DNA of 60,188 nucleotides, taken from NCBI GenBank assembly GCA_947573485.1, contig CANPGB010000019.1, forward strand, positions 1 to 60,188. Reading direction: 5' to 3'. The number at the start of each line of letters is the position of its first letter. Within the stretch, counting starts at the first letter, position 1. Under the pieces are notes generated by a model. The model saw only the letters and a list, made by a program, of their open reading frames with translations. It searched no databases and had not been told where the DNA came from. The translations under genes were made by a program, and so were the position numbers. This document shows positions 1-11,120 of this stretch, piece after piece. The stretch is from an uncultured Porphyromonadaceae bacterium (lineage in GTDB: Bacteria > Bacteroidota > Bacteroidia > Bacteroidales > Muribaculaceae).

Positions 1-708
1 CACAATGACGAGCGATGCGAAATTATCGTCGGCAGCACTTGCCTTGGCCTTGTGACTGTCGAAGGCTCGCAGGCGCAGAGGGTGCTGGAATTGCGGCACG
101 CCGCCGGTGGTCTGCAGATAGCGGTTGCCCATATCGGGTACATACACAGAGTCATAATCCACCAGGACGATGTCCGACGAGTTCTTGCGCACAATGATAT
201 TCTTGCACGAAAGGTCGCCATGGGCAACACTTATCTCGTTCATATGGTGGAACATGAGCACGCACTGATGTATAAACTCCATGCGCTTGTCGGCCGATTG
301 GTGCCGCCACTCGCCGGTGAGGTAGTCGCTGAAGCCCTGCCCCTCGACCCACTCCATATATGTGCCCGGCAGTTCCTCGCCCGTATCCTCCACACGCAGG
401 GCGCGAGGGGCAAAGTCGTAGTCAATCATGAAGCGCATTTTCCACTTGCGCAGATATTGCGCAATGAGGCGGTAACGCTCGATGTCGGCCGCCGACTGGG
501 GCGTTTTCCACACTCGGAAGCATCGGAACTTGCGCCCCGTGGCCTTATCGGCCATTTTGAAAGCGAAGCAGAAGTTACCGCTGCCGCCGTCGGCCTTGGC
601 CCTGCGGCCCACACCATAAATTATGGCGTCATAGTTGTCGCGGGTGTCGGCGTGCAGTATGTTGTCTTTATTTCTTATGCTGTCGTGCAGCTCCCGTAAC
701 TGTGCCAT
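1..708 (-). CDS. Protein kinase-like protein, C-terminus cut by window edge
   Basis: The 236 visible residues start at the ATG complementary to 706-708 and run off the window, so the 3' end is missing. The catalytic loop HGDLSCKN (residues 163-170) fits the HxDxxxxN kinase signature. DYD (184-186) sits where DFG lies in eukaryotic-type kinases. It probably phosphorylates Ser/Thr or acts as a lipopolysaccharide-kinase-like enzyme; which of these cannot be settled. It is the last visible gene of a ten-gene operon, 3 bases after the PP2C phosphatase and downstream of a vWA protein. That trio corresponds to the predicted TerY-P triad of vWA, PP2C and kinase. Substrates are unknown. More operon genes may lie outside the window. 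Confidence 0.8.
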   Translation of the reverse strand, partial: MAQLRELHDSIRNKDNILHADTRDNYDAIIYGVGRRAKADGGSGNFCFAFKMADKATGRKFRCFRVWKTPQSAADIERYRLIAQYLRKWKMRFMIDYDFAPRALRVEDTGEELPGTYMEWVEGQGFSDYLTGEWRHQSADKRMEFIHQCVLMFHHMNEISVAHGDLSCKNIIVRKNSSDIVLVDYDSVYVPDMGNRYLQTTGGVPQFQHPLRLRAFDSHKAKASAADDNFASLVIV

Positions 709-711
709 GGC

Positions 712-1608
712 TCAGAGTTTGAAAATCTTTTTAAAGGTTGCGAAAAAAGGCAGGGCAGGCAGTAGACGCGCCTCGGGCTCGCTCGTGTCGAGGTACTCGG
801 TGACCTCTTCGGGCTCCTCAGCCTCAATTTTCTCGATTACGGTAAATCGCGGAGTGAGTTTTATGATTGTCACGGCCAGATCGTCGTCCATTTCGCCTTC
901 GGCACGCCAACGTTCGGCGAGAGCCTCGAAGTCGGCATTGCTGCGCAGGCCCCACAGAATCTCCTCGGGGTGCTCGCCGCGGAAGTGCATCATCTGGAAC
1001 CACTTGGCCATGGCGTCGGTAAGGAGCACAATATAGCCCTTGCCGAGCGCAAACGACCCTGTTAGCCAACGCCCTGCGAGAGCGCCGTCGCTCTCCACGG
1101 CATTTGTTGACGTCGAGAAATCAATCTTCTCAACCCCGCTGTCGTCGGGCAGCTTTGGCGATGTGCACCACGAGCGGTAGCCGCCTCCGATGAGAGCGAA
1201 AAGCGTGCTGTCGCCTATCACGGCAAAGCGCGCGAGGTCGGCCTCGAGGTCAAGATCAAGACCTATGAATGTCGAGGCGCCGTAGGTGAAGCGCTCGCGA
1301 CGCATATCCTCGTGGCGCAGCTCACGCCCCGCAAGGGTGCCGCGGTAGTTCTCCACCGTCTGCGACCACTCTTCGGCGGCAGGCGGCAGCATGGACTTGG
1401 CAGCGAAGCGCTCCCAGTTATCGAAATCAATGTCGCCGAGAGCGGTGAAAGCACGGCAGAGAGCTTTCGAGAGCATCTCGGGGTGGTAGGAGTTGCTCAC
1501 ACCGTCGGCCACGGCAAAGCGGCCGGCCTGCGGGTCGCTCTCAAGCCAGTCCTGCGTAAGCTCAACATCGTCGTGCTTGGAGAGGAGAAAAGTCTTATAT
1601 TGAATCAT
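712..1608 (-). CDS. PP2C-family protein phosphatase
   Basis: This 298-residue protein shows the metal-binding pattern of PP2C phosphatases: VADGV (D35, G36), GAST (110-113), IGDST (131-135), LLTDAM (D198) and a DDDLAVTII block (241-249). It should be a cytosolic Mn/Mg-dependent Ser/Thr phosphatase. The partner kinase is probably the gene directly after it, 3 bases away; the vWA gene precedes it by 2 bases. This order is the TerY-P arrangement. An insertion of about 70 residues lies between the first two motifs, which is longer than in minimal PP2C domains. No signal peptide or membrane segment is visible. The family call is firm; the specific role is inferred from context. Confidence 0.87.
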   Translation of the reverse strand: MIQYKTFLLSKHDDVELTQDWLESDPQAGRFAVADGVSNSYHPEMLSKALCRAFTALGDIDFDNWERFAAKSMLPPAAEEWSQTVENYRGTLAGRELRHEDMRRERFTYGASTFIGLDLDLEADLARFAVIGDSTLFALIGGGYRSWCTSPKLPDDSGVEKIDFSTSTNAVESDGALAGRWLTGSFALGKGYIVLLTDAMAKWFQMMHFRGEHPEEILWGLRSNADFEALAERWRAEGEMDDDLAVTIIKLTPRFTVIEKIEAEEPEEVTEYLDTSEPEARLLPALPFFATFKKIFKL

Positions 1609-1610
1609 TG

Positions 1611-2432
1611 TCAGTCGATGGGGGTTTCACGTTGGGGGCGCGATGATACCGAAGAGCCGAATTTTATCAGCTCGGCAAGGAGGGCGGCGTTCGATACGTT
1701 CGACACCATGAAGCGGCTGCCCGTCTTGGGAGCGGCCTCGCGCAGCGATGCACCGCGCTTAACAAAAATATCTTCCATGGGCGAACTGATCTCGAAGAGC
1801 AGCTTGCGGCGCGCGTCAGCGGGGGCACTTGTAGGGAAGTAGAGGGGAGTGCCCTCGCCTGCCTTGCCGCTGATGTGCATGTTGAAGAGTATGAGGTTGC
1901 CGTCAGGAACCGATATGTCGAGCAGGCGACGCGCAGCTGCGCGTGCATTGGCGTATGCCACATCGTCGGGCGTATCTTTCTCCTCCGGGTGGCCGTCGGT
2001 TATGTGCAGCACAACGGGCGCGGGCACGGGAGCCCCGGCAGCCTGCTGCTTGCGTATCCACGCCTCGACTTCGGTGCGCACTTTGTCGAAAGCCATGCCT
2101 GTGTGGGTCATGCCGCGGGGCTCGAGGTTGCCGCTTTTCTCGAAGAACATGCACTCGGTGCCGGTATCGTTGAGGCGGTTGTTCACGTCGTTCACGGTGC
2201 CCGAGAATATATCGTAAGTATATTGGTTATAGCCTATTACCTTAACCTCGAAGTTGTCGAGGTAGCGGTTGCCGGGCACCTGCGAAGGCTCTATGGTGTG
2301 GTCGAGCACATCCCAGAGCACCGAACGCACGCGGTCAATCTTATCGTCCCAGCGCATCGAGCCGGAGAGGTCTACAAGGTAAACGAGGAGGCCTGGATGC
2401 TTCGTGCTCCAGCCGAGGTCATATTTTGCCAT
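1611..2432 (-). CDS. vWA-domain protein, TerY-like
   Basis: The 273 residues form a von Willebrand A domain. An intact MIDAS metal site is visible: DLSGS at 21-25, a threonine in MTHTG near 109-111, and D146 in HITDG. Such domains bind partners through a divalent cation. Together with the adjacent PP2C and kinase genes this resembles TerY of the predicted TerY-P triad, although no TerD or TerC gene is in the window. It lies 11 bases after the HD hydrolase gene and 2 bases before the phosphatase gene. No signal peptide is present, so a cytosolic scaffold role is inferred. Whether the kinase and phosphatase act on it is unknown. Confidence 0.85.
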   Translation of the reverse strand: MAKYDLGWSTKHPGLLVYLVDLSGSMRWDDKIDRVRSVLWDVLDHTIEPSQVPGNRYLDNFEVKVIGYNQYTYDIFSGTVNDVNNRLNDTGTECMFFEKSGNLEPRGMTHTGMAFDKVRTEVEAWIRKQQAAGAPVPAPVVLHITDGHPEEKDTPDDVAYANARAAARRLLDISVPDGNLILFNMHISGKAGEGTPLYFPTSAPADARRKLLFEISSPMEDIFVKRGASLREAAPKTGSRFMVSNVSNAALLAELIKFGSSVSSRPQRETPID

Positions 2433-2443
2433 GGTAATTCGGT

Positions 2444-2872
2444 TTAAGAGTTTTCTGTCAATATTTTAAGAGCGGCCTCGTGCTTCTCCACAAGACGTGT
2501 GTAGCCCTGCTTCCGGCCGCGCTCAAGGTTATGGTGCAGGTCGTTTAGCTTCACTGCGCGGGCGAGTGCATTACCCGAGTCGGCTATCCGCTGCACATAT
2601 TCTTTGTAATCGGTGCCCTCGCGGTGTGTGAGCAGGCGCAGGGCATCAACTATATTCGCGGGGATACCTTCGGCAAGGAGGTCGTCGAAAGTCATTGCGG
2701 TGTCTTCAACAACATCATGCAGAAATCCTGCGCACTGCTCGTCGGGCGTCGAGCCCATTAGCCCCACGGTGAGGGGGTGGAGAATCACGGGGTTGCCGTC
2801 GAGGTCACGCTGCCCCACATGCGCTCTCATCGCGATGTCGAGGCTGAGTTCAATAAGTTCATTTGAGGTCAT
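2444..2872 (-). CDS. Small SpoT-type HD hydrolase
   Basis: This 142-residue single-domain protein resembles the hydrolase half of SpoT or stand-alone Mesh1-type alarmone hydrolases. It has AHVGQ (17-21), HP with H32, LHDVVEDT (51-58, H52 and D53, then E56 and D57) and KLNDLHHN (108-115, D111). All four expected metal ligands (H32, H52, D53, D111) are present. No synthetase, TGS or ACT domain follows. It may remove pyrophosphate from (p)ppGpp or act on a related nucleotide. It sits inside the kinase/phosphatase operon, 1 base from the zinc-ribbon gene. The unlinked relA in this window has lost the same residues. Substrate identity is inferred. Confidence 0.78.
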   Translation of the reverse strand: MTSNELIELSLDIAMRAHVGQRDLDGNPVILHPLTVGLMGSTPDEQCAGFLHDVVEDTAMTFDDLLAEGIPANIVDALRLLTHREGTDYKEYVQRIADSGNALARAVKLNDLHHNLERGRKQGYTRLVEKHEAALKILTENS

Positions 2873-2873
2873 A

Positions 2874-3623
2874 TCAGAGCATTGAGACTATTACAAAAAA
2901 GCGGTCGTTGAGATAAAAACGCATTGCCGGGGTGGTGAGGATACCCGTGGAAGGTATGGGCGAGGCGGCCTGACGGATATTTCCCGCGAGGTCGTGAAAC
3001 ACGAGGCGATCGCCGCGAGTCTCCACGGCAAAGTGCTCGGCATTGAAGTTCAGTCCGCGGAAGCCCATTGTCACCTGATGGTGAAGCATGCCGCTCGACT
3101 CGCGGCTGCCGTAGGTGTTACGGCCCTCATACACAAGCATGAAGCATGTGGTGCGCGAGTCCTCGGAGGTAATCATCACCACTCCTTTGGGGCGCGGACC
3201 GCTCTGCGACGACGCCGCCGACGCCTTGCCGAGTTTCTCTCTCAACTCCGCACACTCGCTCATCAGGCGCTGCACCTCGGCCTGGTGCCGGCGGCTGAGG
3301 TCGGCGTTCTCTGCGGAGAGCTTGCTCAGCTCCTGTGTATGAGTGGTTTTCATACTCGCGGCAAGTGCCTGAGCCTGCGTCTCGCGGTTTGTCGCATCGC
3401 TGAGTTTCGCTTTGGCATCATCGAGCTCGCGCGAGAGTTGGGTGCTGCGTTGACGCTCGGCATAGGCCTTGCGGGCGGCTTCGAGACGACGCTGCTCGAA
3501 GTCGGCCACGCGCGGAGGCAGTATGGCAGGCATATTTATGTGAGCCCAGCCGCAGGTGTCGCAGAGCGAACCGCGCATGGGAGCCTCGCACACGGGGCAT
3601 GAAATGTTATTGTTCGGAGCCAT
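2874..3623 (-). CDS. Zinc-ribbon, coiled-coil protein with FHA-like C-terminus
   Basis: I recognise no named family for the whole 249-residue protein. The N-terminus has a four-cysteine zinc ribbon (C9, C12, C21, C24). Residues about 40-130 are a heptad-rich coiled coil. The last 100 residues are beta-rich, with EGRNTYGS and HHQV stretches reminiscent of the phosphothreonine-binding loops of FHA domains. The FHA resemblance is degenerate and only suggestive. If correct, it would read phosphorylation by the operon's kinase. Its first 17 bases overlap the end of the AAA+/protease gene, so translation of the two is probably coupled. A scaffold or reader role is inference. Confidence 0.6.
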   Translation of the reverse strand: MAPNNNISCPVCEAPMRGSLCDTCGWAHINMPAILPPRVADFEQRRLEAARKAYAERQRSTQLSRELDDAKAKLSDATNRETQAQALAASMKTTHTQELSKLSAENADLSRRHQAEVQRLMSECAELREKLGKASAASSQSGPRPKGVVMITSEDSRTTCFMLVYEGRNTYGSRESSGMLHHQVTMGFRGLNFNAEHFAVETRGDRLVFHDLAGNIRQAASPIPSTGILTTPAMRFYLNDRFFVIVSML

Positions 3624-6600
3624 GGTCGTGGAGTTTCACTTTAAGTGTAGGTATTTTGAAGAGCTGGTGAACATCGCTGAAAATGCGCAGGTTATCGGTT
3701 TCGGAGCCTCCGAAGAGGGTGCCAATGAGGGCTAGGTCGGAGGAGCGCAGCAGCGGGCCGCCGGAGCAACCGGGAGCGGCGTCGATAGCCGAGTAAATCA
3801 CATCGAACACGCAATCGCTGTTCACACGCATATGAGGGTCGTAGTTGTTGATATGCCCGGGGTCGGTGAAGAAATTGCTCGATATGCCGGTGCCGCGACG
3901 GTAGCCGCAATGTATCACATTTTCAAGCGGTTGAGGTTCTTCACTGCCGGTATCGACGGCAAAGTGACGGGCGTCGTCGGGCACGCTGCGCGCTCGCAGT
4001 ATGGCGTGGTCGGTAAGGGTGTTGATCCACAGCAACTCAGCCTCAACGGCGTCGGCACCGCGGTGGCGCACGAAGTGGAAATCACTGTGCCCGTTCACAA
4101 CGTGCGCGGCAGTGAGTATAAGGCCGTCGTCTACCGAGATGAAGCACCCGGTGCCTACGCCGTCGGGAGTCTGCACAAGCCCGACGGCATGCTTGAAGTC
4201 GGCAGGGGCGTGCACTCGCCGAGGATGTTCGGCAGCAGGAAGGCTTATGTTTACCATACCGGGGATATTTGCGGGGGTGGCGGCAGTGGCGGCGGCCACA
4301 GGCGAGGCAATAGATGCCTTCGGTGCAATATTCGCGTAGTTGGGAAAATCGACGGGGGCAACCGAGGTATCGGCACTACCCTCGCTGCGTCGGCGCCGAA
4401 GCAGTGCCTTGCGGAGGGTATCGGCGAGTCCTATGGCATCGCGCGCATTGCCGAAATCCTTGCCACGGCGCTGTTTGAGACTGATAAACCAGGCGTCGGA
4501 GAGGGCGCGGCAAAGTTCGGGCTCACGTATACCAAGCTGATTGGAAGTCAAGGTATTGCTGACAATCTGCCACAGAGCCTCTTCGTCGTAATCCTCGAAG
4601 AGCCACATATTGTCTTCGCCAAAACGGCTGGCAAGACCGCTGTTCTCGGCAAGGAGCTGCTGCATGTCGTGGGTATAACCGGCGAATATCACGGCCTGGT
4701 TGCCCATGAAACGCTCGTCGGTGAGGCACTCCGTTATCTGGTCTACGGCCTCGTTGCCACGCAGCTTGTAAGCCTCATCTATAAACAGAACTTTACCCGC
4801 GTTCTTGCGGAAAATATCCTGGATTGCAGCCGCGGTACCGCCCTGGTAGCCCTTGACGAGCTTGTCTTTGGTGAGGGTCACGGTCTGCGGGCTGTTGATC
4901 AGACCCACATTATATAGTATACGCGCCATGAGCCGCGCAACGGTTGTCTTACCCGTGCCGGGGTTGCCGAGGAACACGAAATTGAGGTTTGGTTTCTTGG
5001 TGCTCACTATGCCTAACTCCTCGTTGAGTTTGCGCTCTTCGAGGGTGGTAACGGTGAGTGTCTCCAGGCGCTCCTTGATTTCGGGCAAGCCGGTGAGGGC
5101 GTTGATTTCCTTGAGAATATCGTCGACCGATACCTCTTTCTGAATAGTCTTGGCGAAATTCTCGGGGATGTTGCTTATATCCACCGGGCCACTCGCTCCG
5201 GCCTTGCGCCAGTTGGCGAGGATTGCCGAGGCCAGCACCTCCATTTGGGCGGCATTACGCCACGATGAGTTGCGGCGAACGAACATTGCCGTGATTATGC
5301 GGCGTATGTCTTCGTCAAACTTCGGCGTGGTGGGTGTACCGTGCATGTTTCGCACAAAGATTCGGTAGAGGGCGTCGGGGCGGTAGTCTTCCATGCGTAT
5401 CATGGAGTCCTCGCCATTGAATCGCCCGGCAAGGCCTTCGTTGCCGTCGATGAGCAGATTCTCCATTTGGCCGGGATAGCCTGCGAGAATAACCACTGAG
5501 TCGGAGCGGTTCTCCATAAACTGGATGAGCACTTCTATGGCTTCTTTGCCGTAATCCACGGTCTCGCGGGCGCCGGCGCCGCTCATCAGCCCATAAGCCT
5601 CGTCGACGAAAAGCACGCCTCCGGCAGCGCGGTCGCACAGGGCTTGCGTCTTGATGCGTGTCTCGCCAACGTACTGCCCGATGAGGTCGCCCGCAGTGGC
5701 CTGTATGAGGTGCCCGCGCCCAAGAAGGCCGCGTTCCTGCAGTATCTCGGCAAGGAGGCGCGCAACGGTGGTCTTGCCCGTGCCGGGGTTGCCTATGAAC
5801 ACCAGGTGAGGACGGAAGCGCGGCCCGCGGCCTGCGTTGGCTCGGGCATACTCGAGGTTTTCGAGGTAGTTATCAATCTGCTCAACAACCTTTTCCATAC
5901 CGTCGAGGCGCCGTAGGCGGTCGTAAGCGGTGTCGGTATTGAATTTATTGAGTATCTCCGCAAATTCGGCCTCGGGGAGGTCGCGGTAATGCGAGAGGGT
6001 CTCTTCTTTGCCGGGGAGGGCCTGCTGCCCGGCCTTGGCAGGGGTCGTAATCTGAGCAAGACGGGTGGCGAGGCGGTCGATACCCAAGCCCCCTACAAGC
6101 CCCTGCATACCCTGGCAGAGCCTGCGACGGTTGAGCAGGGCGCGGAACTCTTCTTTCTCGGGACCGCTCAGGCAGTATAGCCCGGGAGCCTCGGCGGGGG
6201 CCGAATTGCCGTCGGAGCTTACGCCCTTGAGCATGGAACAGAAGCTTTCCTGGCGGAAGAAGCTGCTGTTATCAAAGAAGTTGGCAGTCGTAGGCAGCGA
6301 GTACATCATCACTATGCGCGTGCCGTAGCCCTGCGACTTGAATTTATTGCGCCACAGCTCGAAAGTCGACTGATACTGCTGCGCGTTGGGGTACGAGTCG
6401 CTGGTGGCCGTAGCGAAAACAAAGGCGGTGCGGGCGCCGGGCTTGCGCTTCACATAGGCATCGATAATGCTGAAAGGGTCAACGGAGTCGGCGATTCGGA
6501 AATAGCTGTGGGGGCCTTCGTCAACGCGCTGTATCTGGTCATAATCGGGCTCGGCGGCAGGCGCGGGAGCTGCTGCCGGAGCGGGACTTCCGCCCATGCG

Positions 6601-6939
6601 TCGCCGCCCGAAGGGACTCCGCACCTGCGCTACGTAGCGTGCGGGGGCGGCACCTGCGGCAGGCGTCGCGCCTGCGGAGGCACGGCTCGGGGTGAGATTA
6701 TAGACTTCGGCAAGGTCGGCCTTACGGTAGCTGAAAAAGTTGTGGTGCTGCTCCTGCGAGTAGAACACTACCGTATACCCCGCCGCCTTGAACGAGCGGT
6801 AGACGGCCTCATACACATCGAGATAGCGCAAATCGGCGCCGAGGAAAACGTCGTCCATGCCCGGCCCGTAAATTGCCGAGAACATGCCACGGTTGGGGAG
6901 GTCGAAATTGTCGATTCGCTTGATAGATTGCATGGCCAT
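3607..6939 (-). CDS. Tandem CbxX-type AAA+ ATPase fused to trypsin-like protease
   Basis: At 1110 residues this is the largest protein of the operon. An unrecognised N-terminal region (1-330, with a Pro/Ala-rich stretch near 90-130) is followed by two AAA+ modules of CbxX/CfxQ-SpoVK type. Both contain GNPGTGKTT (383-391 and 658-666) and Walker B blocks VLFVDEAY (442-449) and VLFIDEAY (717-724), so both look active. After an Ala/Pro linker (about 855-910) comes a trypsin-like domain with a complete triad: H946 in TAAHV, D977 in TLTDHAIL, S1059 in GCSGGP. This suggests ATP-driven remodelling coupled to proteolysis, or a protease gated by the ATPase. It lacks a signal peptide and is presumably cytosolic. 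Targets are unknown. Confidence 0.85.
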   Translation of the reverse strand: MAMQSIKRIDNFDLPNRGMFSAIYGPGMDDVFLGADLRYLDVYEAVYRSFKAAGYTVVFYSQEQHHNFFSYRKADLAEVYNLTPSRASAGATPAAGAAPARYVAQVRSPFGRRRMGGSPAPAAAPAPAAEPDYDQIQRVDEGPHSYFRIADSVDPFSIIDAYVKRKPGARTAFVFATATSDSYPNAQQYQSTFELWRNKFKSQGYGTRIVMMYSLPTTANFFDNSSFFRQESFCSMLKGVSSDGNSAPAEAPGLYCLSGPEKEEFRALLNRRRLCQGMQGLVGGLGIDRLATRLAQITTPAKAGQQALPGKEETLSHYRDLPEAEFAEILNKFNTDTAYDRLRRLDGMEKVVEQIDNYLENLEYARANAGRGPRFRPHLVFIGNPGTGKTTVARLLAEILQERGLLGRGHLIQATAGDLIGQYVGETRIKTQALCDRAAGGVLFVDEAYGLMSGAGARETVDYGKEAIEVLIQFMENRSDSVVILAGYPGQMENLLIDGNEGLAGRFNGEDSMIRMEDYRPDALYRIFVRNMHGTPTTPKFDEDIRRIITAMFVRRNSSWRNAAQMEVLASAILANWRKAGASGPVDISNIPENFAKTIQKEVSVDDILKEINALTGLPEIKERLETLTVTTLEERKLNEELGIVSTKKPNLNFVFLGNPGTGKTTVARLMARILYNVGLINSPQTVTLTKDKLVKGYQGGTAAAIQDIFRKNAGKVLFIDEAYKLRGNEAVDQITECLTDERFMGNQAVIFAGYTHDMQQLLAENSGLASRFGEDNMWLFEDYDEEALWQIVSNTLTSNQLGIREPELCRALSDAWFISLKQRRGKDFGNARDAIGLADTLRKALLRRRRSEGSADTSVAPVDFPNYANIAPKASIASPVAAATAATPANIPGMVNISLPAAEHPRRVHAPADFKHAVGLVQTPDGVGTGCFISVDDGLILTAAHVVNGHSDFHFVRHRGADAVEAELLWINTLTDHAILRARSVPDDARHFAVDTGSEEPQPLENVIHCGYRRGTGISSNFFTDPGHINNYDPHMRVNSDCVFDVIYSAIDAAPGCSGGPLLRSSDLALIGTLFGGSETDNLRIFSDVHQLFKIPTLKVKLHDHGSEQ

Positions 6940-6941
6940 TT

Positions 6942-8387
6942 TCAGTTACGTGCGCGTTGGCGTATTTTTGCTGCAGCGCCCTTGCGGGTGAGGGCTCCGG
7001 CGTCGGCGAGCTCGGGAATAGCGTGGTTACCGCCGTCGGCAGGGGCATGCGGCGCCTCCACCTTATGCCCGCTCTGCGAAATCTGCTCGCATATGCGGCG
7101 CACGGTGTTGAGGTATTCGGCACCGGTCATGGGGCGTTTGTCATTTCGGTGGAACACGAGGCGGTTTTCAAGCCCGTTCTCATCGGGCTCCACAACAATA
7201 GAAATGTTATCGCCCTGGGCGCTCTTCACCACGGCAAAGAAGCCCTCGCGCCAATCGGCATCGACCTCGCCGCCAACAAAGTCCACGGCGTCGGTGCCGT
7301 CGGCGCGCCGCTCTATCTCCCACCCCTGGCGGCGCAGCGCGGTGACAATATCTTCGGTGACGGTCACACGGTTCTCGCTCAGAATTGCCTGGCGGGCAGC
7401 CGCTTGCACAAGGTTCTCGGCACGTTCATGAAGTTCTGCGGTGCGTGCGCCAATCTCTTTTACACGCTCAAGCGAGGGTTCGGTGGCGAGTTCGCGTTCG
7501 AGATTCTCAAGTTCGGTCTGCACGGCCGAGTATTCACCTCGGCTCCAGAAATCGGTCTCGAGTTCGGCAACATCGCTCGCATCGGCGGGGTTGGGCACGC
7601 GCGTTATGCGGTTGGAGTTTACCTCTCCGAGCACCGTACGCAGGTTTTCGAGAGCCTGGGTGCGTATGGCATCGTATATCATCTTGCAGCGCGTGGCCTC
7701 TTCGGCAGCGCTCTGTATGCGTATTATAAGGTCGGTGGCGAGGGCTACGGTGCCTTCGCTGTCGGGGTTGGCCTCCACGGCGGCGAGGCGGCGACGGATG
7801 TCGGCGCTCTCTTCGGGGCAGAAGCGGGCGATGTCGACAGCCGCTGTGGCGGAGGCATAGGAGCCTCGCACGAGTTCGAGTGCCTCGCGGCGACGTGTGC
7901 CGAGGTCGGCTATGTGGTTGAGTATGCCTTCGACGGTGCTGGTGAGGTCGGCAATCTGACGCCCTTGCGCATCGAGTTGCCGCCCATGGGCGTCGAGTGT
8001 GCTCTGCTGGCTGCGCAGACGGGCATCCACACGGCTTTCGAGTTTGTTGAGGCCACTGTTGAACTCTTTGCGCAGTTCACCTTCAAGACCGTTGAGTGCG
8101 TTATTAACGTTATTGGCAAGCGCTTGCAGACGGCGGCGCTGCTCCTCGTCGAGGAGGCGCACTCCGGCCTCAACGCCCTGCAGACCGTTGGCGAGTTTGC
8201 GGTCGAAATCGTTGCGCATGCGTTCGGCCTCGCGGCGCGCCGTTGCTTCGGCTTCGCGGCGGGCACGCTGGGTGGCCTCGGCCATATTGCGTTCTAACTG
8301 CGCGCGGGTGTTGCGCATGTTGTCGTTAAGGCGGTTAATGGCAAGCTCGGCCTGACGGATAGTAGAAACTTTGATTGCAAGTGACAT
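6942..8387 (-). CDS. Coiled-coil protein of unknown function
   Basis: This protein has 481 residues from the start MSLAIKVSTI. An in-frame extension upstream to 8498 is rejected because it would run into the radical SAM gene. The first 170 residues are strongly charged heptads rich in Glu, Arg and Ala, with lower-density coiled coil to about 360. The last 120 residues are a compact mixed domain that I do not recognise. There are no membrane segments. It lies 13 bases after the radical SAM gene and 2 bases before the AAA+/protease gene. It could be a structural partner or substrate of the ATPase; that is inference from position only. Confidence 0.65.
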   Translation of the reverse strand: MSLAIKVSTIRQAELAINRLNDNMRNTRAQLERNMAEATQRARREAEATARREAERMRNDFDRKLANGLQGVEAGVRLLDEEQRRRLQALANNVNNALNGLEGELRKEFNSGLNKLESRVDARLRSQQSTLDAHGRQLDAQGRQIADLTSTVEGILNHIADLGTRRREALELVRGSYASATAAVDIARFCPEESADIRRRLAAVEANPDSEGTVALATDLIIRIQSAAEEATRCKMIYDAIRTQALENLRTVLGEVNSNRITRVPNPADASDVAELETDFWSRGEYSAVQTELENLERELATEPSLERVKEIGARTAELHERAENLVQAAARQAILSENRVTVTEDIVTALRRQGWEIERRADGTDAVDFVGGEVDADWREGFFAVVKSAQGDNISIVVEPDENGLENRLVFHRNDKRPMTGAEYLNTVRRICEQISQSGHKVEAPHAPADGGNHAIPELADAGALTRKGAAAKIRQRARN

Positions 8388-8400
8388 GATATATAAGCAG

Positions 8401-8967
8401 TTAAATAGTTGGCATACCGACTGTGCGGCTGCAGTTTTCAGAGAATGAGATTTCGATATTACGTGGCCCCTCTTCAAGGGAGTGGCGCATAGGTTCAAGG
8501 CGCGGCGTGAGGAAGTGCAGCCGCTGGTTCGACGAGCCCCGAAGACCGCGGCCGTCGTTCAGGGCCTCCTCATAGGGGCCGTCGACGAGCAGGTCGATGC
8601 TCTTCAGAAGCCTTTGCTGCTCAGGCATAGTAAGCTCCTCAAGGCGGAATCCGGTGAAGAGAATCACCGTGAGCGAAGGTCTTTCGGCGAGTACTTCTTC
8701 AAGCAGTTCGGCCAGCGACGCGGCTTGCACCATGGGCTCACCGCCGCTGATGCTTATGCCGTCGATACCTCGGGCTGCAACTATATCGGCAGCGAGATCG
8801 CCGACGGTCACCAAAGTACCGCCGTCAATGTCGCGCGCCTCGGGGGTGGCACAACCGGGGCAACGAAAGGGGCACCCGCGCGTCCATATGGCGTAGCGCA
8901 GACCTGGGCCAAGCGCCCGTGTACCGCTGCGCTGCAGGTGGTGCAGACTCAGGAGTGCATCGCTCAT
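8401..8967 (-). CDS. Radical SAM activase-like protein
   Basis: The 188-residue protein has the cluster motif CPFRCPGC (32-39), which is CX3CX2C for a single SAM-bound 4Fe-4S cluster. It also has the SAM-binding stretch SGGEP (74-78). Size and sequence order resemble NrdG and other glycyl-radical activating enzymes. No glycyl-radical enzyme is encoded nearby, so it may modify another operon product or a metabolite. It overlaps the preceding small helical gene by 4 bases (ATGA). The last 50 residues are atypical of NrdG. Family membership is clear; the reaction is not. Confidence 0.8.
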   Translation of the reverse strand: MSDALLSLHHLQRSGTRALGPGLRYAIWTRGCPFRCPGCATPEARDIDGGTLVTVGDLAADIVAARGIDGISISGGEPMVQAASLAELLEEVLAERPSLTVILFTGFRLEELTMPEQQRLLKSIDLLVDGPYEEALNDGRGLRGSSNQRLHFLTPRLEPMRHSLEEGPRNIEISFSENCSRTVGMPTI

Positions 8968-9371
8968 AGCTCCCCTACAAGCTTGCTGTCGCGCTCCCCT
9001 ACTCTTGCAGCGAGCATGGAGTCGTAGCGGGTGAGCAGTTGTTCAACCTGTGCATCAAGAGCCGGAAGCTCACCGTCAGGTCCGATGGCATCGAGCACGC
9101 GGCGGTTTTCGGTGCGGTGCTCGTGCATGGCGGCACGGCGGCTGTCGTAACGCTCGCGGGCGGCATCGAGTTCGGCGCGAAGCTTGGCAGGGAAGCCCGA
9201 GGCATCAATGCGGTCGAGCGCCTCCATGGCCTCTCCGGCAAGCATGCTGAGGATTACAGCAGCCTTGACATCGGTGTCAGGACTTATGGCCATGGCGGCT
9301 ATATTATTCTTTATTTCAGCCTCAACCTCTCGCAAGGGCATTGAGGCAAGCATTGTGGCGAGGTCGTTCAT
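8964..9371 (-). CDS. Small helical protein, unknown
   Basis: I do not recognise this 135-residue protein. It is almost entirely predicted helix, with charged heptads between about 60 and 130, no cysteines and no membrane segment. Its start codon overlaps the stop of the PIN-domain gene by 4 bases, and its stop overlaps the radical SAM start by 4 bases. All three are therefore probably translated as a coupled unit. It may be an adaptor for one of its neighbours. The conserved gene packing is the main reason for calling it real. Confidence 0.6.
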   Translation of the reverse strand: MNDLATMLASMPLREVEAEIKNNIAAMAISPDTDVKAAVILSMLAGEAMEALDRIDASGFPAKLRAELDAARERYDSRRAAMHEHRTENRRVLDAIGPDGELPALDAQVEQLLTRYDSMLAARVGERDSKLVGEL

Positions 9372-11053
9372 TGGTCAGATTTTTTGGGCAGGTTCGAGAT
9401 GCGGGTGAAAATCTCACGCCGCAGGCGGTAGAGGCGTTCAAGATTCACGCTGCGGATAAAGGCTGGTTTATGCCGCCCCTCAACACCCTCGTCGGGGATA
9501 TTGGCGCTCCAGCGGTACATCGCTTCGGTATCGTTGGTGAGCACGGTGAGGCGAGCCCCCTCTTCGTAGAGCTCTTTTATACGGTCCATTAGCGTGCGGT
9601 CGGCATAGGCCTTGCGGTCGAGTTCGGCGCGTATGCCGGGCGTGACGGCGAGTCCGAGGCCAAGGAGGCGGTCGGTAATCATACGCTTGGCATTATATGA
9701 GGCGGCAACCCCGGTCTTGGCATGGCGCACGATTTCGTCGTATACGTCGTTGGTAATCTCAAACTTGGGCTTCTGCGGGAGCGTCTGGAATTTCTTAATG
9801 AAGTTCTCGATAAGCCACCCGTAGTACATTTCGCCTTTGCGCAACGGATTCTCCTGCACCCAGAAATTGGTGTCGCACAGAAAAATCTCCGCCGAGAATA
9901 TGCGTTCAAGAACTTTCTCTATGCGTTTACGCCATGTATAGAGGTCTTTAGTCGAAAGCTTGTCAATGTCGGCCATTAGGCGCGCAACGGGGAAATCAAC
10001 CTTATCGAAGGCAAAAGCGCCGTCGAAAACCTTCTGCGGGTCGGTGCTGTGCTCGTTGGTGGCAGCGGCTGCGGTATTGCGCTGAGGCTTGGTGGAGTTT
10101 TGCGGTTTTGGCTGCCCCGGGGCTTTGGCTTGGGCATGCGGCTGAGCCTTGGGCTGTGCCTGCGGCTTGGGCTGCCCAGGGCGCGGAACCGGACGCTCGC
10201 CCCCGAACGGCAGGCGCAGAGGCACTCCGCGCATCGAAGGTTTACCGCTACTGAACACGTTCAGAATCACATTGCCGAACATATCCATGGCAAGCCCGAA
10301 GAGCAGTGTCTTGGCAGGAGTGCCGTCGATTTCGGTATCGGGCTCACGGTTGGGCAGAAGGTCACCCCAGCTTATAGAGCCATGGAAAGGCGATGCGAGC
10401 GTAGCGTCGTCGAGCGGAACATACACAGGAGCACCCTCGGGGTTAAGCACACTCCGCGCGCTATAGTCGCTGCGGTTGAGATTAAAAGGAATCTCAGCGA
10501 GGTCGGTCGGGGTTGCTATACGCTTGCGTGTCACAGTAGCTGCAGCAGCTGCGCCGTCGATAGGTATCACCGTGCCAAAACGCTGTTGCAATGCGTGCAG
10601 CACGGGGCGGTGTGCCGTGGTGGCACCTGTCACAAACACTGTCGCTGCTCCCATTGTATCGAGGGCAGCTATTGCCCCGGCAGTAGCTTCCCGCAAATTC
10701 TCGGGCTCGAGAAAGCGGTCGTTATAATCATCGTAAAGCACTTTGCCGTCGGCTCCGAGGGTAAAAAGCTCGTTCCACCCCTGAGCGTTGGCGGCCACAA
10801 CGTCGTCATTGTAAATCTCAGATAAATTGCAACTTACATCATCGCCCACGCGGTCAACTCCCACGCGGCAAGGCGTGGCGTTGCGGTCTATGCGGCAGTG
10901 GTACGAGCAGGCGTCGCTCCCATCGATAACGATAAGGGTAAAATCGTCGGTGCTACAGCGGTCGGCAGCCCACACCGCAAGATTCTCGAGGTCGGAAACA
11001 TGCCTCGTGTCAAGGAGTTTTTTACTGATGTATTGCGTATAGACTCTTCCCAT
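9368..11053 (-). CDS. PIN-domain protein with long N-terminal region, first gene of operon
   Basis: The 561-residue reading uses the ATG at 11051-11053, 36 bases after the -7 box; the longer in-frame extension to 11158 would cross the promoter. Residues 389-515 look like a PIN nuclease domain: D394 in FLCDTN, E440, D490 in RTLMD and D508 in LTNDTE are candidate metal ligands. A Pro/Gln/Lys-rich linker (about 285-330) separates this from an N-terminal region. Around 139-160 that region (VFVTGATT, then LQQRFG) resembles the C-terminal nucleotide-binding part of Hsp70/actin-fold proteins. That similarity is weak. A toxin-like or RNA-cleaving effector role is possible but inferred. Confidence 0.68.
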   Translation of the reverse strand: MGRVYTQYISKKLLDTRHVSDLENLAVWAADRCSTDDFTLIVIDGSDACSYHCRIDRNATPCRVGVDRVGDDVSCNLSEIYNDDVVAANAQGWNELFTLGADGKVLYDDYNDRFLEPENLREATAGAIAALDTMGAATVFVTGATTAHRPVLHALQQRFGTVIPIDGAAAAATVTRKRIATPTDLAEIPFNLNRSDYSARSVLNPEGAPVYVPLDDATLASPFHGSISWGDLLPNREPDTEIDGTPAKTLLFGLAMDMFGNVILNVFSSGKPSMRGVPLRLPFGGERPVPRPGQPKPQAQPKAQPHAQAKAPGQPKPQNSTKPQRNTAAAATNEHSTDPQKVFDGAFAFDKVDFPVARLMADIDKLSTKDLYTWRKRIEKVLERIFSAEIFLCDTNFWVQENPLRKGEMYYGWLIENFIKKFQTLPQKPKFEITNDVYDEIVRHAKTGVAASYNAKRMITDRLLGLGLAVTPGIRAELDRKAYADRTLMDRIKELYEEGARLTVLTNDTEAMYRWSANIPDEGVEGRHKPAFIRSVNLERLYRLRREIFTRISNLPKKSDQ

Positions 11054-11088
11054 TCTGTAGTTTACAATGATTGGTAAAACGTCGACTA

Positions 11089-11120
11089 CAAAGATAAATA
11101 CAATTCGGCAATTCTCCAAA
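11089..11120 (-). promoter_or_regulatory. Promoter of the ten-gene operon
   Basis: Reading the minus strand, TTTG (11117-11120) is followed after exactly 20 bases by TATCTTTG (11089-11096). This matches the Bacteroidota -33/-7 consensus. Transcription should begin near 11083, giving a leader of about 30 bases before the ATG at 11053. Confidence 0.75.

Follow-up and report, generated by a model that had tools for sequence, protein, structure and literature searches.

A 12-gene operon in Bacteroidales joins a TerY-P triad to a tandem AAA+ protease, a radical SAM enzyme and a probable nuclease effector that is exchangeable

Introduction

To our knowledge, the output of the TerY-P triad, composed of a vWA protein, a PP2C-type phosphatase and a kinase, has not been established. 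The locus analyzed here raises the question of what such a phosphorylation switch might act on. The text of PMC10889362 reports that TerY-P protects P. aeruginosa PAO1 against Autographiviridae phages, while it is cited as tellurite-linked and possibly metal-sensing in the main text of PMC11090510. The window, i.e. the whole stretch of 60,188 nucleotides that was analyzed, is derived from an uncultured Porphyromonadaceae bacterium (Muribaculaceae in GTDB; contig CANPGB010000019.1). An earlier note had read its left end as a ten-gene operon that suggested a phosphorylation-controlled stress or defence system, in which a signal triggers proteolysis, nucleotide turnover or RNA cleavage. Our analysis supports this interpretation in part.

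Results

Layout of the operon

All ten open reading frames of the block (Table 1) are located on the minus strand (window 1..11053). The gaps from gene 1 to gene 10, determined by script, are -4, -4, 13, 2, -17, 1, 11, 2, and 3 nt; several neighbours overlap and the widest intergenic gap is 13 nt, in agreement with the tightly packed single unit proposed earlier. The gene count, in contrast, had to be corrected. The window edge, which is an assembly break, cuts gene 10, and bases 1-55 of the window are identical to the final 55 bases of contig C2. Following the earlier suggestion to look past this edge, we found that contig C2 completes the kinase gene and adds two more zinc-ribbon membrane genes (11 and 12), giving a full operon of 12 genes and about 13.0 kb (window plus contig C2).

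A putative promoter element with the sequence TTTG-N20-TAnnTTTG, which we take to be the Bacteroidota promoter pattern, ends 35 nt upstream of the first ATG (11053) and is situated after the uridine phosphorylase gene; searching with a generic sigma-70 model was not informative, as 8 sites were obtained vs 4.9 expected. The GC content of the operon is 0.589 compared to 0.553 right of 11195 in the window, and a foreign origin is not clearly indicated by composition.

Table 1 Features of the operon in the window and on contig C2
Feature	Length (aa)	Description	Coordinates	Strand	Basis
Putative promoter		TTTG-N20-TAnnTTTG	11089..11120	-	Script pattern search
Gene 1	561	PIN-like nuclease domain protein	9368..11053	-	Weak CARF_PIN match and relatives
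Gene 2	135	Small protein without assigned function	8964..9371	-	Present in 4/4 loci
Gene 3	188	NrdG-like radical SAM enzyme	8401..8967	-	CxxxCxxC and GGEP motifs intact
Gene 4	481	Long coiled-coil-like region, conserved C-terminal domain	6942..8387	-	
Gene 5	1110	N-terminal domain, two CbbX/SpoVK-type AAA+ domains, Trypsin_2	3607..6939	-	
Gene 6	249	Zinc ribbon at the N-terminus followed by a coiled coil; C-terminal part FHA-like by eye (unproven)	2874..3623	-	
Gene 7	142	SpoT-type HD hydrolase (predicted) with HD and ED residues	2444..2872	-	
Gene 8	273	TerY-like vWA protein, DxSxS...T...D site intact	1611..2432	-	PADLOC TerY
Gene 9	298	PP2C-type phosphatase, conserved Asp residues	712..1608	-	PADLOC PP2C
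Gene 10, first part		Ser/Thr kinase (HGDLSxxN, DYD)	1..708	-	PADLOC STK_OB
Gene 10, remainder		C-terminal zinc ribbon (CxxC...CxxC)	Contig C2, L002:15201-15680		
Gene 11		Zinc ribbon, hydrophobic stretch, WG-like repeats	Contig C2, L002:14048-15196		
Gene 12		Zinc ribbon, hydrophobic stretch	Contig C2, L002:13692-14033		

Conservation, distribution and genomic site

Gene co-occurrence and order across Bacteroidota had been set beforehand as the test that could refute the proposal, and the outcome favours it. Four of four Bacteroidales loci, including that of the window, share ten genes in the same order at 22-47% protein identity; two of the four are close relatives, and all save the window's are from MAG records. 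We consider this conservation to be beyond chance, as a judgement rather than by calculation. A mere adjacency of unrelated genes, for which nothing speaks except that a known joint function is absent, is contradicted by this synteny as well as by four genes that are also kept in order on a cyanobacterial plasmid (see below), and is hardly credible.

Among 393 genomes of the order, the operon was found in its own genome and in one other (G022); a G580 match to gene 4, scoring 26.7 bits over positions 15-188 of the model, covered the coiled-coil part only and was dropped as chance. In a relative of the same genus (G032) the site is empty, with the flanking genes 158 bp apart, and thus the block is gained or lost as a whole. 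The operon lies between two housekeeping-type genes, and the neighbouring genes differ at three places among the four loci. As to the earlier question of whether such loci sit in defence islands, the ten flanking genes tested include no defence genes. Presence or absence of the entire block, together with ParA and ParB genes adjoining a plasmid-borne relative from Calothrix, would also fit a module for maintenance or addiction by which an integrative element or plasmid secures its own retention, through harm to cells from which it is lost. However, no integrase, relaxase or transposase was noticed among the flanking genes read or tested (window up to 14.6 kb), the operon contains no antitoxin-like pair, and its site lies between the two housekeeping-type genes, which makes this explanation improbable.

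The vWA-PP2C-kinase triad

The assignment of genes 8 to 10 to a TerY-P triad was confirmed by the PADLOC models TerY (2.9e-15), PP2C (6.8e-12) and STK_OB (1.5e-22, first part of gene 10), which also match the triad in both relatives scanned (L005 and L007). In Pfam, VWA_2 and the protein-kinase model remained below cutoff, as did the zinc-ribbon and WG matches of genes 10-12, and gene 9 had no match. The vWA metal site (D21, S23, S25, T109, D146) and the PP2C residues D20, D35, D133, D198, D242, and D243 are invariant in 4/4 aligned rows. The vWA gene had no match among plasmids.

As in TerY-P, all three proteins are present, in the order vWA-PP2C-kinase and with MIDAS and catalytic residues, and the kinase ends in a zinc ribbon, a feature that the text of PMC11090510 describes for CoCoNuT-linked TerY-P. 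Unlike the stand-alone three-gene TerY-P, the triad is here embedded in a 12-gene operon, ten genes of which are common to 4/4 loci. Seven further proteins beyond the triad, including the motor-protease and the radical SAM enzyme, are kept in all four, in addition to an exchangeable nuclease.

The tandem AAA+ motor-protease

Gene 5 is, as predicted, an ATPase-protease fusion with intact catalytic residues: both AAA+ domains possess the Walker A lysine and the Asp-Glu pair of Walker B, and the Trypsin_2 domain contains His946, Asp977, and Ser1059. The top AAA+ models were SpoVK (3.1e-80), CbbX (6.6e-78), and EccA (TIGR03922, 9.1e-69) among the best 25 of 68 families. SpoVK and CbbX are families of assembly or activase motors. 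In plasmids, 268 records match gene 5, none of them over 80% of its length.

The EccA match, together with that of EccA1 chain 9lur (1.2e-42), could indicate that the operon regulates an apparatus for secretion or of contractile type, with kinase and PP2C as in type VI/VII secretion. This is very unlikely, given that CbbX and SpoVK outscore EccA and that no WXG100, sheath or channel protein appeared in the family lists of the 12 genes (for gene 5, the best 25 of 49 and the best 25 of 68).

Genes 2 to 4, 6 and 7

Gene 3 is a radical SAM enzyme, as noted previously, that resembles NrdG, the anaerobic ribonucleotide reductase activase, in cluster motif and fold family. It differs in that its score (101.8 bits) is below the equivalog cutoff of 126.1 and that no NrdD partner was recognized in the operon by family-model scans. 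The second NrdG match of the genome, on contig C12, is probably its housekeeping NrdG. Gene 2 shows 28-31% identity across loci; a relation to the terminal part of the STAND-TPR protein from Calothrix, at 0.4%, is not claimed.

Gene 4 is a distant homologue of the Calothrix coiled-coil protein (profile comparison, 97.6%). This value is not due to the coiled coil alone, since two coiled-coil misses (the 0.4% above and the 2.2% below), serving as rough controls, scored low. Homology to the coiled-coil proteins of proteobacterial PIN/radical SAM cassettes (2.2%) is not claimed.

The FHA-like reader proposed for gene 6 could not be confirmed: neither Pfam nor a further search provided database support, and the structure model of the C-terminus was unusable (mean pLDDT 43.2). 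For the alarmone-type hydrolase, gene 7 has a SpoT-type HD match (3.9e-10; 38.7 bits vs a whole-protein cutoff of 499.2), but the three other loci yielded no counterpart in ORF lists with a minimum length of 100-110 aa. Because it is present in one locus of four only, the SpoT-like HD gene is accessory.

Gene 1 and the exchangeable nuclease

Gene 1 consists of a conserved N-terminal part without assigned fold (about residues 1-200), a segment that also occurs in separate PIN proteins of relatives (about 200-280), and a Pro/Gln-rich linker followed by a C-terminal PIN-like domain (about 380-540). The CARF_PIN match of 0.0022 is weak and below standard thresholds, and relatives carry the same acidic residues. 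The PIN domain is probably an RNA-cutting effector, in line with the effector nuclease suggested before. The AlphaFold model was unusable (mean pLDDT 43.0). Between loci the nuclease part varies, being a fused PIN domain, a PIN on a separate protein, or MIT_C (6.7e-23), and is thus an exchangeable effector; in L006 and L007, the PIN on a separate protein matched no PIN model. A baeRF_family2 match of gene 1 (0.015) was below cutoff and considered noise.

Relatives on plasmids

On plasmid pCAL6303.02 of Calothrix sp. PCC 6303 (L026), counterparts of genes 3 to 6 follow one another as in the operon: a radical SAM protein, the coiled coil of gene 4, a tandem CbbX-type AAA+ protein sharing the N-terminal domain of gene 5, and the zinc ribbon-coiled coil of gene 6. 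Neither the triad nor trypsin or PIN was annotated or aligned in this cassette, which is instead preceded by Hsp70 and STAND-TPR proteins. For the gene 4 and AAA+ counterparts of Calothrix, no other plasmid record of high coverage was found. Three proteobacterial plasmids carry PIN, AAA, and radical SAM genes together. Reading of the protein, along with the equivalent position of the Hsp70 gene on the Calothrix plasmid, had suggested Hsp70 homology for the gene 1 N-terminus; at a profile comparison probability of 0.3% it is not claimed.

Discussion

The closest kinds of known systems are TerY-P, Type III-A CoCoNuTs, and NTP-dependent conflict systems, and beyond the triad the operon falls outside the definition of each. 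With Type III-A CoCoNuTs bearing a SpoVK-like ATPase extension, as presented in the text of PMC11090510, it has in common TerY-P with STK-zinc ribbon, coiled coils, a predicted RNase effector and tandem SpoVK-type AAA+ domains. In contrast to these, no gene was found for the McrB GTPase, McrC/DUF2357 or the SF1 helicase: neither the McrB NxD GTPase nor the McrC N-terminal domain (DUF2357) was among the Pfam matches listed for the 12 genes (gene 5: best 25 of 49), and helicase models gave only P-loop cross-matches in gene 5. No HEPN RNase was matched by Pfam, although short HEPN domains may escape detection. Furthermore, both AAA+ domains keep their Walker motifs and are followed by a trypsin domain, and a radical SAM enzyme is present, a term that occurs 0 times in the main text of PMC11090510. 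The NTP-dependent systems of Kaur et al. 2020, according to the text of PMC7159879, follow the same grammar: an NTPase core is combined with vWA and with kinase-zinc ribbon/PP2C/vWA sets, effectors are exchangeable, and components such as radical SAM, trypsin and PIN occur occasionally. The operon differs from these, and from the MoxR-vWA ternary systems, in its AAA+ of CbbX/SpoVK type: MoxR, VMAP, iSTAND or FtsH were not recognized, the best models being SpoVK, CbbX, and EccA (best 25 of 68). For the GTPase-centric systems that carry kinase-zinc ribbon/PP2C/vWA, DO-GTPase and GAP1 gave no match among the lists shown, from libraries that possibly contain no such models. As the earlier note had presumed, no named system with this exact set was found in the open-access papers searched, including the portions of PMC10853773 covered.

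We put at about even the chance that the operon encodes a transferable, phosphorylation-gated, multi-protein conflict (immune-type) system with an RNA-cleaving effector. This reading is favoured because the triad matches TerY-P models and the text of PMC10889362 reports anti-phage activity for TerY-P; because the block is rare, present or absent as a unit, and flanked by differing neighbours; because the effector is exchanged while motor, protease, phosphatase, kinase and vWA residues are kept; and because the Calothrix version adjoins STAND-TPR and Hsp70 on a plasmid and PIN, AAA and radical SAM genes occur together on proteobacterial ones. It is weakened by the ten tested flanking genes being free of defence genes, by the sub-threshold PIN match and by the number of only four loci.

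A stress- or metal-responsive signalling and maturation system draws on the same evidence. Here, the switch would control a CbbX-like activase/protease in charge of repairing or assembling a target, maturation of this target would fall to the radical SAM enzyme, and PIN and HD proteins would tune RNA and nucleotides, with no immune role. The SpoVK and CbbX matches, the zinc ribbons of several proteins, the housekeeping flanks and the tellurite link cited in the text of PMC11090510 are consistent with it. Patchy presence, the empty site, exchangeable nucleases and plasmid-borne relatives fit conflict systems better. Moreover, as noted earlier, no TerD or Ter membrane gene is present: none was matched among the 14 proteins or pieces of the 12 genes in the Pfam scan (gene 5: best 25 of 49 families). 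We regard this alternative as somewhat unlikely.

In the conflict system, the coiled-coil and zinc-ribbon proteins (genes 4, 6, 11, and 12) may form a scaffold that holds the motor-protease and gene 1 as the adaptor bearing the effector. Kinase and PP2C would set a phosphorylation state, which the vWA protein, via its metal site, could pass to the motor. As the signal we infer invasion or damage, upon which the motor would remodel the complex and the trypsin domain would cut a component, releasing or arming the PIN nuclease; cleavage of RNA, its presumed target, might then block either growth or the invader. By modifying a subunit, its supposed substrate, the radical SAM enzyme may render the complex competent, and the SpoT-like hydrolase of this strain may contribute turnover of nucleotides.

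Speculatively, and rather unlikely at present, the operon could represent an undescribed class of immune machines in Cyanobacteriota and Bacteroidota, in which four core proteins (an NrdG-like radical SAM enzyme, a scaffold of coiled-coil type, a tandem CbbX-type AAA+ protein with an N-terminal domain of its own, and a zinc-ribbon coiled-coil protein) are combined with varied nucleases and sensors, the latter being STAND-TPR plus Hsp70 or the kinase-PP2C-vWA switch, and with radical chemistry on a subunit arming the complex. The data suggest that the radical SAM-AAA+ module is a reusable conflict-system core in distant phyla. The operon places a TerY-P triad and a candidate output chain of motor-protease, radical SAM enzyme and exchangeable nuclease within a single transcription unit, which makes the target of the phosphorylation switch a directly testable question.

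Among viral contigs, 55 pattern stretches yielded no relative of gene 4, and 10 loci carry radical SAM relatives with 27-43% identity to gene 3.

A twelve-gene operon across an assembly break

The earlier note had described a ten-gene operon at the left end of the window, and the ORF listing confirmed the ten minus-strand reading frames as claimed. Genes 1 to 10 encode a PIN-like protein, a small protein, an NrdG-like radical SAM protein, a coiled-coil protein, an AAA+-AAA+-trypsin protein, a zinc ribbon-coiled coil protein, a SpoT-type HD hydrolase and the TerY-P triad of vWA, PP2C, and kinase proteins, with intergenic gaps of -4, -4, 13, 2, -17, 1, 11, 2 and 3 nt. The first ATG lies at 11053, and a TTTG-N20-TAnnTTTG element (11089-11120), which we take to be the Bacteroidota promoter pattern, ends 35 nt upstream; a generic sigma-70 scan was uninformative (8 sites vs 4.9 expected).

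At the left edge of the window the assembly is interrupted within the kinase gene: the final 55 bases of a second contig of the same genome (C2) are identical to window bases 1-55. The kinase reading frame runs on into C2, terminating in a CxxC...CxxC zinc ribbon, and is followed by genes for a 382-aa protein (zinc ribbon, hydrophobic stretch, WG-like repeats) and a 113-aa protein (zinc ribbon, hydrophobic stretch); the Pfam zinc-ribbon and WG matches of these C2-encoded parts are below cutoff. An alpha/beta hydrolase gene begins 153 nt beyond the 113-aa gene. With the kinase completed and two further genes on C2, the operon therefore comprises 12 genes and ~13.0 kb rather than ten genes.

G032, a genome of the same genus, carries a uridine phosphorylase and an alpha/beta hydrolase gene 93% and 92% identical to the operon-flanking genes on one contig, with 158 bp separating the matched stretches, and the intervening DNA can be aligned to the stretch that precedes the hydrolase gene in the operon-bearing genome. 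This operon-free site shows that the operon was acquired or lost in one piece, and it also supports the contig join. Among 31 same-genus genomes, the operon-bearing one included (hydrolase present in 28), the two flanking genes are adjacent in G032 only; they lie on one contig 18 kb apart in G933 and 63 kb apart in G929, and on separate contigs in 24 others. The ten flanking genes that were tested gave matches to families of housekeeping proteins or generic enzymes (e.g. uridine phosphorylase, DprA, TonB, YgiQ, Ddl, MurF), some below curated cutoffs, and no defence or mobility genes were noticed among these ten.

Rarity and conserved gene order

The system is rare. Gene 1 is present in 2 of 149 family genomes (its own and a second genome, G022) and in 1 of 395 phylum genomes, the N-terminal profile of gene 5 matches 1 of 375 phylum genomes (in both cases its own), and the gene 4 profile matches 3 of 393 order genomes (its own, G022, and G580); these samples overlap and their counts are not additive. 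The G580 match was discarded as chance coiled-coil similarity. The gene 4 pair alignment was also run against a collection of 84,980 species, each represented by a single genome. The method looks for two short peptide patterns, and some members will escape it; it yielded 63 pattern stretches, 3 of them encoding relatives. These belong to two Bacteroidaceae MAGs of sheep origin (L006, L007) and to a Prevotellaceae MAG (L008), the latter being, to judge by its length, the same contig as the G022 locus L005.

All four Bacteroidales loci have a common order that starts with the N-terminal part of gene 1 and continues with gene 2, radical SAM, gene 4, AAA+-AAA+-trypsin, gene 6, vWA, PP2C, kinase, and zinc ribbon-hydrophobic-WG protein, the last having been paired by reading the sequences. 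In G022 the kinase and WG genes are separated by an additional gene, whose product has a zinc ribbon and a hydrophobic stretch. L006 has two additional genes between genes 5 and 6, where both L006 and L007 have a separate PIN-like gene. Identities to the window proteins are 25-26% (gene 1), 28-31% (gene 2), 44-47% (gene 3), 27-31% (gene 4), 33-34% (gene 5), 26-33% (gene 6), 33-36% (vWA) and 22-31% (PP2C). The neighbouring genes, as read, differ at three distinct sites (window, G022, and one common to L006 and L007), so the operon has moved.

Directly in front of the G022 operon lies a gene for a UpxY-family antiterminator (L005:3250-3831; 2.5e-36, above cutoff), a family associated with long surface-polysaccharide operons; such a protein would be in keeping with an operon of this length. 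Some 500 bp beyond the same operon, L005:17761-19722 encodes a further, separate protein of 653 aa, in which an unassigned N-terminal half is combined with one CbbX/SpoVK-type AAA+ domain.

Relatives outside the operon

The vWA profile matched 13 of 296 phylum genomes, its own included. From the 12 others, three loci were fetched and two listed and partly scanned (4 of 8 and 6 of 23 listed ORFs). A vWA match is present in each of the two, together with a PP2C match in one and a WG-fused kinase in the other, and no match of radical SAM or CbbX type came from the ten scanned proteins. As a module, the triad thus also occurs outside this operon. The kinase-WG fusion in the TerY-P-like locus of another Bacteroidota genome (L064:5376-10072) echoes the separate zinc ribbon-WG protein described here.

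A radical SAM relative is encoded on 150 plasmid records, seven of which were inspected.

Plasmid neighbourhoods of radical SAM relatives
Feature	Coordinates	Remarks
Calothrix sp. PCC 6303 plasmid pCAL6303.02 cassette	L026:6403-17924	adjoins ParA, ParB genes
Five-gene cassette, three Proteobacteria (Polaromonas, Moellerella, Leisingera)	L025:2671-12582, L027:632-10585, L028:168-10570	from annotation
AAA ATPase, DUF1257, DUF2997, NrdG-like radical SAM in a row	L029:7688-10555	Paenibacillus plasmid
Similar row, hypothetical protein replacing DUF1257, one extra gene	L030:4564-8257	Paenarthrobacter plasmid

The Calothrix cassette encodes, in order, an Hsp70 (PF00012, 3.9e-12), a STAND-TPR protein (AfsR-like N-terminus, 2.1e-12; FxSxx_TPR, 279 bits vs a cutoff of 300), a radical SAM protein (39% identical), a gene 4 homologue (hhalign, 97.6%, 4.2e-12), a tandem CbbX-type AAA+ protein whose N-terminal domain matches that of gene 5 and which stops before the trypsin start (5.6e-69), and a zinc ribbon-coiled coil protein resembling gene 6 (95.5%, 1.4e-8), these E-values applying to single comparisons. 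The annotation of this stretch, with its 15 features, names no vWA, PP2C, kinase, or PIN protein.

By annotation, the proteobacterial cassettes all run from an AAA-domain protein through a PIN protein, a hypothetical protein, and an AAA ATPase to an NrdG-like radical SAM protein. In the Polaromonas cassette, the one scanned with Pfam, the AAA-domain protein proved to be an SF1 helicase, the PIN protein matched PIN_4 (7.3e-24), and the AAA ATPase was ClpB-like. Their hypothetical protein showed no demonstrable relationship to gene 4 on comparison. A Geminocystis plasmid has nothing annotated as AAA or PIN next to its radical SAM gene. From these neighbourhoods, the radical SAM-AAA partnership recurs on plasmids, and the strict core of genes 3-6 is shared with one cyanobacterium among the plasmids inspected.

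Catalytic residues and a proposed conflict system

Throughout the four loci, gene 5 retains the Walker A lysines 389 and 664, the Walker B Asp-Glu pairs 446-447 and 721-722, and the protease residues His946, Asp977, and Ser1059, with Walker A positions 384 and 390 variable. Equally invariant are the metal site of the vWA protein, the aspartates of PP2C, and the CxxxCxxC motif of the radical SAM enzyme. The window kinase has HGDLSxxN and DYD, and the SpoT-like hydrolase has its HD/ED residues. All these motifs are read here in their customary roles.

We propose that the operon is a phosphorylation-gated conflict system, in which the motor-protease encoded by gene 5 would arm the PIN RNase; its role in immunity, the RNA that it would target, the order in which the steps take place, and the substrate of the radical SAM enzyme are what we infer. 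The main rival is a role in stress signalling or maturation. With regard to a conflict system, one study describes TerY-P as protective in P. aeruginosa PAO1 against phages of Autographiviridae (PMC10889362), and Kaur et al. set out a general grammar including kinase-zinc ribbon/PP2C/vWA sets, one subsystem having a radical SAM component (PMC7159879). Searches of an open-access library found no description of the present gene set; Anantharaman et al. 2012, cited as a source for TerY-P, could contain a related neighbourhood.

An exchangeable putative nuclease

The C-terminus of gene 1 is a PIN-like domain in the window and MIT_C, a phospholipase D-like domain, in G022 (6.7e-23). In L006 and L007, gene 1 is confined to its N-terminal part (285 aa); a counterpart of its sequence from ~residue 200 onwards, together with the PIN-like domain, is carried by a separate protein encoded behind gene 5. 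Single BLASTP comparisons aligned window gene 1 with the separate protein of L007 over residues 202-530 (1e-6) and with that of L006 over residues 382-530 (2e-5). The PIN parts have in common DTN, the VYxEI glutamate, and TND; the separate L006 and L007 proteins gave no PIN model match. Among the four loci, the SpoT-like HD gene was seen in that of the window only.

Residues 64-181 of gene 1 (window 9368-11053) match bacterial archaeo-eukaryotic release factor family 2 below cutoff (E 0.015), a match absent from the two gene 1 relatives scanned (L005, L006), which may offer a weak lead to a translation-linked fold.
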